DNA from: Desulfobacula sp.
GTDB lineage: Bacteria; Desulfobacterota; Desulfobacteria; Desulfobacterales; Desulfobacteraceae
Direction: 5' to 3'
Assembly: GCF_030145145.1 (NCBI RefSeq)
Contig: NZ_JAQYWD010000036.1
Span: 1 to 64,000 of the forward strand
Length of the DNA stretch: 64,000 bases
Made by a program: the position numbers and the translations under genes. This document shows, piece after piece, positions 42,940 through 49,064 of the stretch (its first letter is position 1; every line of letters starts with the position of its first letter). The notes beneath the pieces are model-generated. The model did no database searches. It had not been told where the DNA came from and saw nothing but the letters and a program-made list of their open reading frames with translations.

Positions 42940-43509
42940 ATGCACAAGAAAATCAAAAACATCATCCACTCAATGGATGTAAAAAAAGACCCGGAAACCG
43001 CTCATTCAGGCGCCCGGGAGATTTATCAACTGGGGCCGGAGGCAATGGACGTGCTTGTCGATATCGGCACTGCTGTAAACGTTAACGAAGAAGAGGTTGC
43101 CACCCGGCACAAATTGATTCGTGCGATCATTTTTTCCCTGTCAAAATTCACAAAAAAAAATTTCCTGTTAAAGCCCATGCTTCTCGACAATGAAGATGCC
43201 ATTCAGTTGCTCTGTAATTTTTCTGAGCAGGGATTTAATTCTGCCCGGACCGTCCTCTTTGGCCTTGGTTTTTCCACGGAAGATATTTTAAAGAAAAGAC
43301 TGATGTCACTTCCCGTGGTTGACAGCAATGAACGGGATCGTGAAATAACCCTGAACGAAGCGGTTCAGGAAATTAAAGCGGCAGATCTGACGTTGATGAT
43401 AAAAAAGATCAAAAACCAGGGGTATACCATAGGTACCACACCCAAGCATTCCCATGAAATCTTCAAAACCGGTAAACATAAATTTGCTTACAGGATACGC
43501 CGGTTATAA
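42940..43509 (+). CDS. Hypothetical helical protein (189 aa)
   Basis: It begins MHKKIKNIIHSMDVKKDPE and is preceded by AAGGA at good spacing and a candidate promoter. It is all-helical in appearance, with a GAREIYQLGPEAMDVLVDIG stretch resembling a HEAT-like repeat; no signal peptide, no membrane segment and no enzyme motif. I do not recognise a family. Its last 47 nt overlap the 3' end of the convergent truncated phosphoesterase, which suggests a rearrangement joined the two here and may have altered its C-terminus. Confidence 0.6.
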   Translation: MHKKIKNIIHSMDVKKDPETAHSGAREIYQLGPEAMDVLVDIGTAVNVNEEEVATRHKLIRAIIFSLSKFTKKNFLLKPMLLDNEDAIQLLCNFSEQGFNSARTVLFGLGFSTEDILKKRLMSLPVVDSNERDREITLNEAVQEIKAADLTLMIKKIKNQGYTIGTTPKHSHEIFKTGKHKFAYRIRRL

Positions 43510-43825
43510 TCCCGGATCCCATCCAGTGCTGCTTCAGATTGGTCATAGTGAAATGGACATAGGTTTTCTCCGGTTCCCGGCTTTCTCCGATGTCGCCGAA
43601 ATGCAGTGCCATCTCAATATGTTGTTTTGATAAGATATCAACGCCTTTTTCAAGGGCAGAATAGGCGGCTTCAATATTATCGGTACCGGTCTGGTCGCCA
43701 ATAATTCCAATGCGCAGTGGATCGTTTGATGGGGTGTCTGGAAAACAAACAGTGCTGGATAAGGAAAAAAGCAAAAACAGGATACCCTGTACGATTATTT
43801 TTTGAGTGATGCTATTTTTCTTCAT
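43463..43825 (-). pseudogene. Truncated calcineurin-like metallophosphoesterase
   Basis: A 120-residue frame with a good ribosome site (AAGGA), a signal peptide (about 1-30) and the start of a metallophosphoesterase: IGIIGDQTG (normally GDxH-type first metal motif) and ALHFGDIGES (second, GDxxE). Intact relatives continue for some 200 residues with the GNHD and His motifs, which are absent. The frame instead ends in an unrelated tail that overlaps the convergent 189-aa gene. It is the remnant of an exported phosphoesterase. Confidence 0.6.
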
Positions 43826-44040
43826 TTTAACGTTTCCTTATCTGTGTTCCCCTGAGTTCCGGCAGCCTGAACCGGATCATGGGTGTGAAGGATTCATAAT
43901 CTTTTTTTAAGCAAGTGTCCATATCCTCTGTGCCGGATGTAAACAAAGGGTGTAAAACCATATTGACATTCAAGCCGTATCCTAGTAAATTTTGTGCCTG
44001 GAAATATACAATTTTGTATAAAAATGTTTGACTGCATGCG

Positions 44041-44189
44041 ATACAGGTGCCCGGAATAACGGGGAAAAGGAAATCAGGTTAAAATCCCGAACGGTCCCGC
44101 CACTGTAAGCTGAGAACGGTACATTATGCCACTGGTTAACGGGAAGGCGTACGCGTTTGTTGAAGCTAAGTCAGGAAGCCTGCCTGTAT
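44041..44189 (+). promoter_or_regulatory. Cobalamin (B12) riboswitch aptamer
   Basis: A closing stem P1 (ATACAGG 44041-44047 with CCTGTAT 44183-44189) encloses the conserved string of the class: GGTGCC-like start, GGGAAAAGGAA, ATCCCGAAC, then CCCGCCACTGTAA (B12 box core) and AAGTCAGGAAGCCTGCC. The core is well conserved despite decay of the operon behind it. When B12 binds, such aptamers favour a terminator or block translation. A strong terminator starts 30 nt downstream. Confidence 0.93.
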
Positions 44190-44218
44190 GATATCGCAAT
44201 GGCATCATGAACGATGGT

Positions 44219-44270
44219 AAAGCTCATGGTTATTTTTCTGCTGAGGAAAATAGCTGTGAGCTTTTTTTTT
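44219..44270 (+). terminator. Riboswitch terminator (expression platform)
   Basis: Long interrupted hairpin (AAAGCTCA at 44219-44226 pairs with TGAGCTTT at 44257-44264; inner TATTTTTC/GGAAAATA also pairs) followed by nine Ts. Its position after the aptamer marks a transcription-terminating platform: high B12, no operon transcript. Confidence 0.78.
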
Positions 44271-44284
44271 AATGTTAAACCGTA

Positions 44285-44757
44285 ATGGACAAGGGCATGG
44301 GATATAAGGGTCGAGATGTTGAAGTCTGCTTGCTGGAGAATGATCTTTGCCTGATTGTGGCCTGTGATTCGTGTGGCGCAGTCGGGGAGAAAGACCTTGA
44401 TCAGGTATTGCCTTATCACAGCCAGGGGATCGCGTTTATTGTCTGGGCCTGCCAAAAGTCGGACAGGAAGTTCTGGATGCAGGTGCATTGGAAGTTGTAA
44501 CTGCCGGCCATATCAATTTACTTTTAAACCGGACAGATATCCATGACATTTTGCCGGTGGGATCAAAAGGCATACAAGTTGAAGCCAATCAACTGGCGCA
44601 AAGTGTACACTGTATATTTAAAGCCACGAGCACTCCCCTGGTCGATTTGAACAAATCAGGGGGGCCATCAACCTGCATTATTTTTACCTGTCGTATAGCG
44701 CAGGACATCACCTGCTTTGAAAATCTGCCTTTATCTGAGGTGGGTATTTTCATTTAA
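44285..44757 (+). pseudogene. cblS alpha-ribazole kinase, deletion-frameshift remnant
   Basis: The first part encodes a PurM-like N-terminal strand (YKGRDVEVCLLE, then LIVACDSCGAVGEKDLD), the pattern of alpha-ribazole kinase CblS. After about 50 codons it loses frame. Starting near 44450 another frame gives the C-terminus (GLPKVGQEVLDAG, DIHDILPVGSKGI, KSGGPSTCIIF) to a stop at 44757. The middle of a protein normally near 300 residues is missing. Assignment to CblS rests on these motifs, the B12 riboswitch and the adjoining ECF genes. Confidence 0.7.
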
Positions 44758-44800
44758 CATCAATGAATGTATCAATGGAAAATTCTTGGAGGAAACGATA

Positions 44801-45310
44801 ATGGAACAGGAACACGCAGGAGATTTAAAACCCAACATACTCTCGGTTAAAAGAGTTGCTTATATTGCCATCTTTATTGCACTCAGTGCAGTTGGCGCCA
44901 TGATAAAAATCCCCAGTCCAGCGGGAACCATTGGCCTGGATGCTGCGCCGGGATACTTTTGTGCCCTGGCCTTCGGATATGTTGAAGGGGTCAGTGTAAT
45001 CTTTATCGGGCACCTTTTAACGTCGGGTATCGTGGGCTTCCCATTGGGTCTTCCCCTGCATATTTTTATTGCGGTACAAATGGGTCTGTGGGCAGTGGCG
45101 TTTCGCTGGGTGACCCATAAATTCGGCATGATACCGGGCACTGTGATTGCGGTCTTGCTGAATGGCGTTGTTTCGGCATTCACACTGGTCTTTGTGGGCG
45201 GAATGGGAGCTGCTCTGGGCGTTATGCCGTTTTTGGTTGCAGGATCACTCATCAACGTTGTGGTGGCGGTTGTAGCCTATAAAGGGGTCCATGCCGGAAG
45301 GCTCATCTAA
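44801..45310 (+). CDS. ECF transporter S component, CblT-like (alpha-ribazole uptake)
   Basis: 169 residues from ATG 44801, which has GGAGG 8 nt upstream; an earlier in-frame ATG lacks one. There are about five or six membrane helices; the family block PSPAGTIGLDAAPGYFCALA precedes FGYVEGVSVIFIGHLLTSG. S components bind the vitamin and work with EcfT and two ATPases. Under a B12 riboswitch and next to cblS, the substrate is most likely alpha-ribazole, a lower-ligand precursor of cobalamin. The frame is intact although the ATPase gene behind it is broken. Confidence 0.8.
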   Translation: MEQEHAGDLKPNILSVKRVAYIAIFIALSAVGAMIKIPSPAGTIGLDAAPGYFCALAFGYVEGVSVIFIGHLLTSGIVGFPLGLPLHIFIAVQMGLWAVAFRWVTHKFGMIPGTVIAVLLNGVVSAFTLVFVGGMGAALGVMPFLVAGSLINVVVAVVAYKGVHAGRLI

Positions 45311-45326
45311 CCGAAAAGGCCGTCAA

Positions 45327-46411
45327 ATGGTTCAGGCCATTGAACTAAGTCATGTTTCATTTCGATATAAAACCGCAGACACTTTTGCGCTCAAGGATAT
45401 CGAATTTTCATTGGCGCAACCGGACAAACAAATCCCTTTCCCTGGTCGGTCTGAATGGGTATGAAAACAGGTTTGAGCATGGTGATTGTTGAACAAAAAA
45501 TCGACGATATCATTCACATGATTGATACCGTCATTCTTCTCAATGACGGGTGCATGAAATGGCAAGGCAAACCAGAAGAGATGTCCTCCCAAAACTCTTT
45601 TTTCAGCCGTCCTGTTTTTCCCATGTATCCGAAACAGCCGGGATTTGATGAAAATTCACACCAAGACAATGACATGAGACAGCCCATCCTGCAGGTAAGG
45701 GACCTTAATTTTTCCTATACCCCGTCTGAACCGGTTTTAACGGATATCCATCTGAGCATTTATCCCAATGATTTTCTGGCACTGGTGGGTCACAATGGTG
45801 CGGGAAAAACCAGTCTGGTATAACATCTGAACGGCCTGATTGACTGCACATCCGGTTCAATTCTGCTTGATGGAAAACAGGTAAAAACACTGACGTCGAA
45901 AGAATTGTCACACTCAGTCGGGTTTGTTTTCCAGAACCCGGATCATCAAATTTTTGAACCCTCTGTTGAAAAAGAGATCGCGTTTGGATTGTCAAACAGA
46001 GGGTTTTCCAGGTACCAGATAAAAACAAGGGTGGATGAAACCATTGAATATATTGGGTTAAGCGCGGTGCGAAAACATCACCTATTTACTTTGGGTAAGG
46101 GGCTCAGGCAAATGATAGCAGTTGCTTCAATCGTTGCACTGAAGCCGAAAATACTCGTGGTTGATGAACCCACCACAGGACTTGATTCAAGCGGCAGGCA
46201 GAAAATCATGAATATTATTGAGAAACTGCATTCCCATGGAACGGCAATTGTTCTCATCAGTCATGACATGGAACTGGTTAAAACCTATGCCCGCCGCCTG
46301 GTTGTGCTCACCCATGGAAAAATCATTCTGGATGAAAACACAGAACAGGCTTTTCTGGAAAAACAACCGCTGAAAAATGCAGGACTGCTCATCAATGAAT
46401 CCTCCTTTTGA
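45327..46411 (+). pseudogene. ECF transporter ATPase (tandem EcfA), deletion plus nonsense
   Basis: ATG 45327 opens an ABC ATPase (IELSHVSFRYKTADTFALKDI), but the first Walker A is deleted and the frame stops near 45460. A later frame holds the end of this half (VEQKIDDIIHMIDTVILL) and a second ATPase: Walker A GHNGAGKTSL, then an in-frame TAA at 45821-45823 where Lys (AAA) is expected. The frame then continues unbroken (NPDHQIFEPSVEKEIAFG, Walker B ILVVDEPTTGLD, H-loop LISHDME) to 46411. The signature motif is also altered (LGKGLRQ instead of LSGGQ). It is a fused double ATPase, inactivated at least twice. Confidence 0.85.
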
Positions 46412-47198
46412 CACGCAACCGAATCTTGTTTCATCGTTGGATATCAGAACCAAGCTTGCTGTATTCATTCAATTTACACTCTGGTCTTTTTTATTCAACC
46501 ACCCGGTTTGCCATTTAACCATGGGACTGGTTGTCATATCCACAAGCCTCATGATGGGCATGTCCTTGTCGCGCTTATTTTCAAAACGCTTACCCCTGCT
46601 CCCGATATTTATCCTGATCATCATCTTTACAGGATTTACAGGCAGTGACGGAATGGTACACGAAGAAAACAGGACCATCCTGTTCACCGCCTGGACAAAA
46701 TTGAACCTGACCAGGGGCGGATTGATGCTGGGGGTGACCTTTTTATTTCGATTGGTGACTATGGTAGTCCTGACAGTTATTGTTCTTGACTCCACGGCCC
46801 TGGATGATTTTATCAATCTCTTTATCAAGCTGAAGCTGCCGCATTCCCTGTCTTTTATCATCACAACAGCCATTCGCTTTGTTCCGGAACTGGACAAAAA
46901 AAGAGACCTTATCATCATGGCACAACGCGCCCGGGGAATCGATATGAACAGCGGCGGGTGGCTCAGGCATTTTAAAGTCCGCATCTCAATTATGATTCCT
47001 TTGATCATCAATTCAATTGTTATGGCGGATCAATTAACAATGGGGCTGTTAAACAGGGGGTTTGGATATAAAAATGAGTGGACGGTTTTGTCTGAATTAA
47101 CATTAAAGCCAAAAGATTACGTCGTGCTTGTCATCTGTCTGATCAGCCTGATATCAGGGATAGCCATAAAAACTCAGGGGGATTGGGGATTGATATAG
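46395..47198 (+). CDS. ecfT: ECF transporter transmembrane component EcfT
   Basis: 267 residues from ATG 46395 (an alternative ATG lies at 46377); it overlaps the ecfA stop. There are five to six helices with a long cytoplasmic coupling segment carrying the Ala-Arg-Gly motifs (AQRARGID and LLNRGFG) that dock on the ATPases. It is full length and open. With the ATPase gene broken it could work only if a shared ATPase pair exists elsewhere in the genome, as in group II ECF systems; otherwise it is a relic awaiting decay. Confidence 0.85.
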   Translation: MNPPFDTQPNLVSSLDIRTKLAVFIQFTLWSFLFNHPVCHLTMGLVVISTSLMMGMSLSRLFSKRLPLLPIFILIIIFTGFTGSDGMVHEENRTILFTAWTKLNLTRGGLMLGVTFLFRLVTMVVLTVIVLDSTALDDFINLFIKLKLPHSLSFIITTAIRFVPELDKKRDLIIMAQRARGIDMNSGGWLRHFKVRISIMIPLIINSIVMADQLTMGLLNRGFGYKNEWTVLSELTLKPKDYVVLVICLISLISGIAIKTQGDWGLI

Positions 47199-47674: not shown

Positions 47675-49064
47675 TTGATGTCATGGGCGGGTATCGTCGA
47701 TGCCATAGAGGGCCAGGCAGAAGATCTCCGTCACCTTGATAACCTGATCTTAAATTTTGATGCATTGATTGATATTTACCAAACGCTTCCCAATCAGGAG
47801 ATTCAGGCACAAGTGGCCAGCCGGATGCTGAAGGCTATCATTTACCGGCAGCCTCAACATCCTGATCTGGAAAAATGGTCTGAACGGGCGCTCCTTCCCC
47901 CCAGTGACTCTCTGACAATCAATATTACAGCCCATATATTACTTTTACAGATGATTCATTATCTGCTGCACACTTCAGATATTAAAAAAGCGGAAAAGAC
48001 ATTGATAGAAGCAAGGCAACTGCTTGACTTTCCTTTTGAAACACCTTTTTTGCGCCTGGTGGCTAAAGTGATGGCAGCTTATTTTTATATGATAACAGGA
48101 AAGCATATCAGGTGCCGCCAAGCCGTAACAGAAGGACTTGAACTGGCACGGGAAAGCGGCATTAAACTATATAATGGCGCTTTATCAATGTATTTCATCT
48201 CTGATCTGCTGAACGTCAATAAGATTAAAACAGCTCAAAAATATATCCAAGAGATGAATTCGTCTGTTGGTTTTTTCAATTCCTTCGATAAAATCTGTTA
48301 CTATTTCCAGAAAGCGAGAATGGCACTGATAACCGGAGAACTCAGAAAAGCTGCCATAAATGTAGAAACAACTCTCGATCTGACAAAAAAATTGGGTATG
48401 CCGGTTAGCACATCTGACTGCTACATTTTACATGCCCTGGTATTATACGCGTCCAAACGGCATGTCGAGGCGGAATCCCAGTTGGTAAAAGCCCGCCGGA
48501 TGATTCGTCATTATCATCTAACTTTTTCCAAGCTGCATTTACTTCTCACACAGGTCCATTTTGCTGGTGGAGCACCGGGTCACGCTTGCCCCGCACTATT
48601 GCTGGATAGATACCTGGGCCTTTGAACAGGTTTATCATCAAGTGGACAGGCTTTTAAAAATCAAATCGGACGATGCCAGGTCTAACGAGACAATTCGCCT
48701 TGCCCAACGGGCTCTGGATCTATATCAGGGCCATTTTTTACACGATGAGTCCTGGGCAGGTTGTTTTATTTCCCAAAGGGAGAAGTTTAAACGCCGATTT
48801 TTAGATTTGGTATGGAGATTGGGGCAGCACTGGGAGGCCAGGGGCCAATGGAACAAGGCTATTGCGTGTTATCAGGGGGGTCTCGATAAAGACGAATTGG
48901 CAGAAACGCTCTATTGCCGCCTGATGGTGTGCCATGGCAAACTCGGTCAACACACTGAAGCCGCAAGAGCATATCATCGCTGTAAAAAAATGATGGCCTT
49001 ATACCTGGACAGGGCGCCTTCCCAACAGGTCAAAACCGTTTATGGGACCATCTGCAGCAAATAG
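47675..49064 (+). pseudogene. TPR/BTAD transcriptional regulator, truncated and frameshifted
   Basis: The first frame (47675-48625) is a helical TPR-like array (repeats of A-x-x-L-x-x-A, for example DIKKAEKTLIEARQLL). Near 48560 it shifts to another frame ending at 49064 that encodes a bacterial transcriptional activator domain (YCWIDTWAFEQVYHQV, ALDLYQGHFL, TLYCRLMVCHGKLGQHTEA). In intact SARP/MalT-like regulators an N-terminal ATPase precedes the TPRs and a winged helix lies before the BTAD; both are missing. The start at 47675 has no clear ribosome site. It is a decayed regulator. Confidence 0.72.

Follow-up and report, generated by a model that had tools for sequence, protein, structure and literature searches.

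The CblT/CblS route for the salvage of alpha-ribazole was reportedly described by Gray and Escalante-Semerena in 2010 in Firmicutes (Listeria, Lactobacillaceae and Geobacillus). The relevant excerpt of PMC6461909 reports CblS-type salvage mostly from Firmicutes, and an excerpt of PMC9600662 treats a cblS-linked cobalamin riboswitch as known in Symbiobacterium thermophilum. In an extract of PMC6722938, the operon genes of the L. plantarum plasmid pMF1298-5 are named CblT, CblS, CobS and CobC, and CbrU is the name given to a protein of the same plasmid. A literature search returned no paper that pairs an energy-coupling factor (ECF) with CblT.

Here we analyzed a stretch of 64,000 nucleotides from a sulfate-reducing Desulfobacula sp. 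(NZ_JAQYWD010000036.1), referred to below as the window, which lies on contig C24 of a draft genome (G000) of 5.66 Mb in 89 contigs. Behind a cobalamin riboswitch and a hairpin, the window carries genes in the order cblS-cblT-ecfA(tandem)-ecfT, with a G+C content of 45.4% that is in line with the 46.1% of the window (Table 1). Five relatives (G050, G056, G058, G059 and G060) carry the operon without the lesions of the window, and in all of them, as here, the tandem ecfA and ecfT follow cblS and cblT. We conclude, with a probability of about 0.87, that the locus represents a recently pseudogenised operon for the salvage of the alpha-ribosides of lower ligands of cobamides.

Table 1. Positions of the operon features in the window.
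Feature	Position	Strand	Evidence
Promoter-like site TTGACA-17-TAAATT	43963..43991	+	1 site vs shuffle mean 1.1, no better than chance; upstream of aptamer, position fits
Cobalamin riboswitch aptamer RF00174	44028..44201	+	94.6 bits, full length
Terminator-like hairpin and T run	44219..44272	+	Site search; folded as 21-bp stem
cblS (putative alpha-riboside kinase) pseudogene	44285..44757	+	Two pieces, 44297-44401 and 44407-44757, out of frame with each other; about 274 nt missing between them
cblT, ECF S component, open, 169 aa	44801..45310	+	PF07155 39.3 bits, PF12822 36.9 bits
Tandem ecfA pseudogene	45327..46411	+	Relatives: two ATPase domains, 507-518 aa
First ecfA deletion junction	45414..45420	+	About 275 nt; removes Walker A and Q-loop of the first domain
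Second ecfA deletion junction	45470..45471	+	About 164 nt; removes LSGGE signature and Walker B of the first domain
In-frame TAA	45821..45823	+	Shortly after second-domain Walker A
ecfT, ECF T component (CbiQ family), open	46395..47198	+	PF02361 81.3 bits

Identity of the operon genes

The intact CblS of G060 is 35% identical over residues 1-220 to a protein of L. plantarum pMF1298-5, whose gene is located between an ECF S component and cobS with a histidine phosphatase gene, and both the homology to CblS and the linkage to cblT and cob genes are therefore found for an intact relative. Searches of Pfam and NCBIfam gave CblS nothing over cut-off, the AIRS family (PF00586) reaching 21.3 bits against a cut-off of 24, and a sequence search up to E 0.1 found no solved relative. 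Because of this, the assignment of CblS rests on the L. plantarum homology, by which the window gene probably derives from an alpha-riboside kinase gene.

CblT scored over cut-off with two families of the ECF S-component fold, and the G060 protein matches the S component of the same L. plantarum plasmid operon (32% over 62% of the query). In Listeria records, a cblT-like match was encountered about 39 kb from a cblS-like match. Judged by the gene neighbourhood and the S-component match, the substrate of CblT would be an alpha-riboside. EcfT is a complete T component over the PF02361 domain, and the frames of cblT and ecfT are both open, as had been read from the sequence.

A substrate other than an alpha-riboside is unlikely. 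The top Pfam match of CblT is a riboflavin-type S-component family (PF07155) and CblS matches AIRS below cut-off only, which would allow another substrate; against this, CblT co-occurs with a CblS relative, the two match a cblT-cblS-cobS-cobC plasmid operon, and a cobalamin riboswitch heads the operon of the window.

Two further observations were made in the flanks. A short open reading frame on the reverse strand (43463-43825), which has no Pfam match, resembles residues 47-110 of the 516-aa phosphoesterase encoded after ecfT in G050 (36% identity, E 3e-5 against the window) and is perhaps a remnant. At 47675-49064, a TPR-type frame is followed by an overlapping BTAD-domain frame in another register, and the two may be a single broken regulator gene.

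Lesions in cblS and the tandem ecfA

Comparison with carriers of the intact operon, which the sequence-only reading had suggested, allowed the breaks to be placed. When the CblS protein of G060 was aligned to the window, residues 1-35 fell at 44297-44401 and residues 129-241 at 44407-44745 in another frame. About 93 codons and the frame itself are lost, so that no complete reading frame is left; the sizes of this and the other deletions are estimates from protein alignment. The large cblS deletion claimed from the sequence is thus borne out relative to the other carriers, four of which possess a whole gene. The fifth copy, that of G050, is cut by contig ends: it was noted to be split between contigs C384 and C263 near residue 131, and the deletion edge in the window falls at about residue 128, a closeness that may be coincidence.

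The ecfA frames are whole in all five relatives, and the G060 protein scored 408 bits with TIGR04521 and 405 bits with TIGR04520. Its residues 1-29, 124-140 and 195-500 were found at 45327-45413, 45421-45471 and 45470-46405 of the window, in three frames. Two complete ATPase domains are absent from the window: the first domain is without Walker A, signature and Walker B, and the second contains a stop codon where all five relatives have lysine. The frame that restarts after this TAA (45905-46411) is without a Walker A. The Lys-to-stop change at 45821 accordingly held, and the deletion that the sequence-only reading had assigned to the ATPase gene exists as two deletions, both in the first domain.

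The same reading had also taken the signature motif to be degraded, which was rejected. The second-domain signature of the window is TLGKGLRQMIA, and TLGKG-RQ-IA is invariant in the five relatives, which makes LGKGxRQ a trait of the family. An LSKG signature was also found in an unrelated ABC ATPase of the same genome, and the LGKG-type variant is therefore not unheard of. It was observed that the tandem EcfA of every relative is asymmetric, with LSGGEKQ in the first domain and LGKGxRQ in the second.

It is quite improbable that these lesions are assembly or sequencing errors. The genome is a draft in many contigs, and the interrupted G050 cblS indicates that assemblies do not always recover the region in one piece; however, errors are unlikely to produce three deletions and a separate in-frame stop across 1.5 kb of two genes while leaving the intervening sequence clean, and the completeness and contamination of the genome are rated at 100% and 2.47%.

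Riboswitch and leader

The Rfam covariance model RF00174 covers the aptamer over positions 1-189 of 189, at a score far over its gathering score of 31.5 bits, and the claim of a well-kept aptamer is confirmed by this full-length match. The B12 box, AGTCAGGAAGCCTGCC, appears by eye to be of the same kind as those in the four other cobalamin riboswitches of the genome (five in total). Among the genes near these four are those for a TonB receptor and for a CbiZ fusion with a FecCD permease, genes of the BtuR-CobQ type, and a TrpD-like gene that accompanies a dehydrogenase-CobT fusion.

The terminator was likewise recovered as a terminator-like hairpin (44219-44264) followed by a T run, which ends about 12 nt 5' of the first cblS ATG. 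Within a stretch of 601 bases, three terminator sites were listed compared to a shuffle mean of 0.5, two of them being one hairpin in two registers and the third lying on the opposite strand. The fold of the whole leader was only modestly better than that of its shuffles (z -1.88), of which 5 of 200 did equally well.

In the five relatives, searches around the operon gave no cobalamin riboswitch at the gathering score, none at E 10 in four of them, and none at E 1 when the loci centred on cblS were scanned in all five; for G058, the search covered 443 nt upstream only.

Distribution and history of the operon

CblS was found in 6 of 86 genomes of the family and in 6 of 389 evenly drawn genomes of the class, with the broken copy of the window counted in both; a cblS-like match in G078 (24 positions, E 0.0084) was not counted among the carriers. 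CblS-type salvage is therefore also present in a small and patchy set of Desulfobacteraceae, and within the literature searched, the finding that a few members of the family have a CblT/CblS importer operon that is self-contained is mildly new.

In the operon tree, a placement of the window with G050, of the same genus, was rejected (AU p 0.0014). The grouping of the window with G059 had an unrooted support of 100, with values of 63-95 for single genes. This discordance, together with the patchy spread, suggests transfer or uneven loss of the operon.

Age of the decay

The codon model was run on a fixed tree with a topology obtained by FastTree from cblT and ecfT. The ecfT test kept 259 of 267 codons; in ecfA, the piece 45421-45469, the stop codon and eight misaligned codons (320 reduced to 312) were left out. 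On the window branch, omega was 0.03 for cblT (95% upper bound near 0.09), 0.11 for ecfT (0.21), 0.12 for the ecfA pieces (0.21) and 0.15 for the cblS pieces (0.44), with the bounds taken from a grid; an omega of 1 was rejected for each (2dlnL of 32.5, 25.8, 29.4 and 8.2, respectively). These omega values are rough because synonymous sites are near saturation, with 0.5 to several changes per codon on the branches and 1.4-3.4 on that of the window.

Since the broken and open genes have equally low omega, the breaks are recent relative to the window branch, and the decay looks recent on the scale of divergence from the relatives. For the same reason, the open frames prove nothing about use. The reading that open cblT and ecfT frames mean present use was considered and rejected as unproven. 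Private changes at otherwise invariant columns did not separate broken from open genes: the window has 11/90 in cblT, 10/84 in ecfT, 8/111 in the ecfA pieces and 8/64 in the cblS pieces, and G059, the most divergent relative, has 10/89, 23/97, 15/118 and 10/66.

The sequence-only reading had further proposed that the surviving components might use a shared ATPase. Apart from EcfT, T components of the CbiQ type were found in the genome only on C8, with CbiM, and on C86, beside a biotin protein ligase gene. A search for other ecfA genes gave two EcfA-like single-domain ATPases on these contigs (C86, 213 bits; C8, 194 bits to TIGR04521) and none over the 330-bit cut-off among 131 matches, with 150 of 166 candidates scored. 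That CblT and EcfT work with such an ATPase made elsewhere, and that the imported molecule is used without CblS, is unsupported and very improbable: both genes are open with low omega and two candidate ATPases exist, but each of these sits in its own module and under the cut-off, the broken genes have equally low omega so that it is no marker of current use, and the kinase is lost.

Cobamide genes of the host

We found no second cblT in the genome, where the single match is that of the window, and no second cblS, where both matching pieces lie in the window; no intact copy that would mark this region as a recent duplicate was thus found for either gene. The sequence-only reading had also called for a search for genes of de novo ligand synthesis, of which the outcome was mixed. 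BluB gave matches below cut-off only, with none over it in the host genome or in any of the six operon carriers, and PF01964 (ThiC/Bza) had no match in the host, compared to 59 of 86 family genomes that have one. CobT was recognized once, in a 705-aa protein that joins it to a zinc dehydrogenase; CobS is also present once, and CbiZ was found as well.

As CobT and CobS are present, free bases could still be attached. With no benzimidazole synthesis gene recognized and CobT, CobS and CbiZ in place, the host is predicted either to use purines or free bases as the ligands that it attaches, or to take up cobamides and remodel them by means of CbiZ. In the absence of a PF01964 match, the synthesis of the thiamine pyrimidine by ThiC also seems to be missing.

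Several features of these genes were recorded separately. The CobT domain of the fusion (L022:9362-11479, contig C76) stands behind a zinc-dehydrogenase-like domain, with a cobalamin riboswitch and a TrpD-like gene upstream; such a fusion is possible in 29 of 86 family genomes, counted as open frames of at least 600 aa at CobT matches, with domains assigned in the host genome only. At L020:6454-8505, a periplasmic binding protein is fused to a CbiZ cobinamide amidohydrolase; genes for a FecCD permease and an ATPase adjoin it, and a cobalamin riboswitch is close by. In four of the five relatives (not G058), a ThiC-like gene lies beside a separate cobT. This is possibly a Bza gene; two of these genes compared with NCBIfam scored over the ThiC cut-offs and under the BzaB cut-off.

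Discussion

In the intact relatives, CblT, EcfT and the fused two-domain ATPase would import an alpha-riboside and CblS would phosphorylate it to an activated lower ligand, to be joined to a corrinoid by CobS; we infer both steps from homology to the Firmicutes pathway. In the lineage of the window, the corrinoid-bound riboswitch would presumably fold the terminator and turn the operon off. At low corrinoid, transcription would continue into the operon, and its message would yield CblT and EcfT alone, with neither a functional ATPase nor a functional kinase. Because the kinase gene and the gene of the transporter motor are both broken, this salvage route has very probably ceased to work. The earlier claim that the host has lost or is losing lower-ligand salvage stands in as much as kinase and ATPase are lost and no intact second copy of cblS or cblT was found, and falls in the part that relied on a degraded signature. 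The case is one of clear but ordinary recent gene decay.

A wider scenario is doubtful and is offered tentatively. Some Desulfobacteraceae might possess a self-contained alpha-riboside importer, with its own T component and an asymmetric LSGGE/LGKG ATPase, that was passed between lineages; the lineage of the window might have added a B12 riboswitch, then lost the importer along with benzimidazole synthesis, and could now depend on purine or free-base ligands through the dehydrogenase-CobT fusion, as a part-way switch in cobamide economy.

If the reading of recent pseudogenisation is correct, the locus offers a dated example of the loss of lower-ligand salvage in which the regulator persists longer than the enzymes and decay is uneven among the four genes of a single operon. 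A riboswitch and open transporter genes can, in such a case, mislead automated predictions of cobamide salvage.

Compared with known systems, the locus resembles the CblT/CblS salvage of Firmicutes in that relatives of CblS and CblT adjoin and that import and phosphorylation of a lower-ligand riboside are presumed, and differs from it in that two of the four genes are broken. On the L. plantarum plasmid, the genes that come after cblT-cblS are cobS and one for a phosphatase, with no T or A gene directly attached. Among RF00174 riboswitches, the likeness lies in the full-length match with a terminator-like hairpin ahead of a cobamide gene set; the one described here differs from known cases in heading a broken operon, and none was found ahead of cblS in any of the five relatives. 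Tandem ECF ATPases such as the CbrU-type protein of L. plantarum pMF1298-5 likewise have two ATPase domains per chain, whereas the second-domain signature is ISGGQ in that protein and LGKGxRQ in all five relatives.
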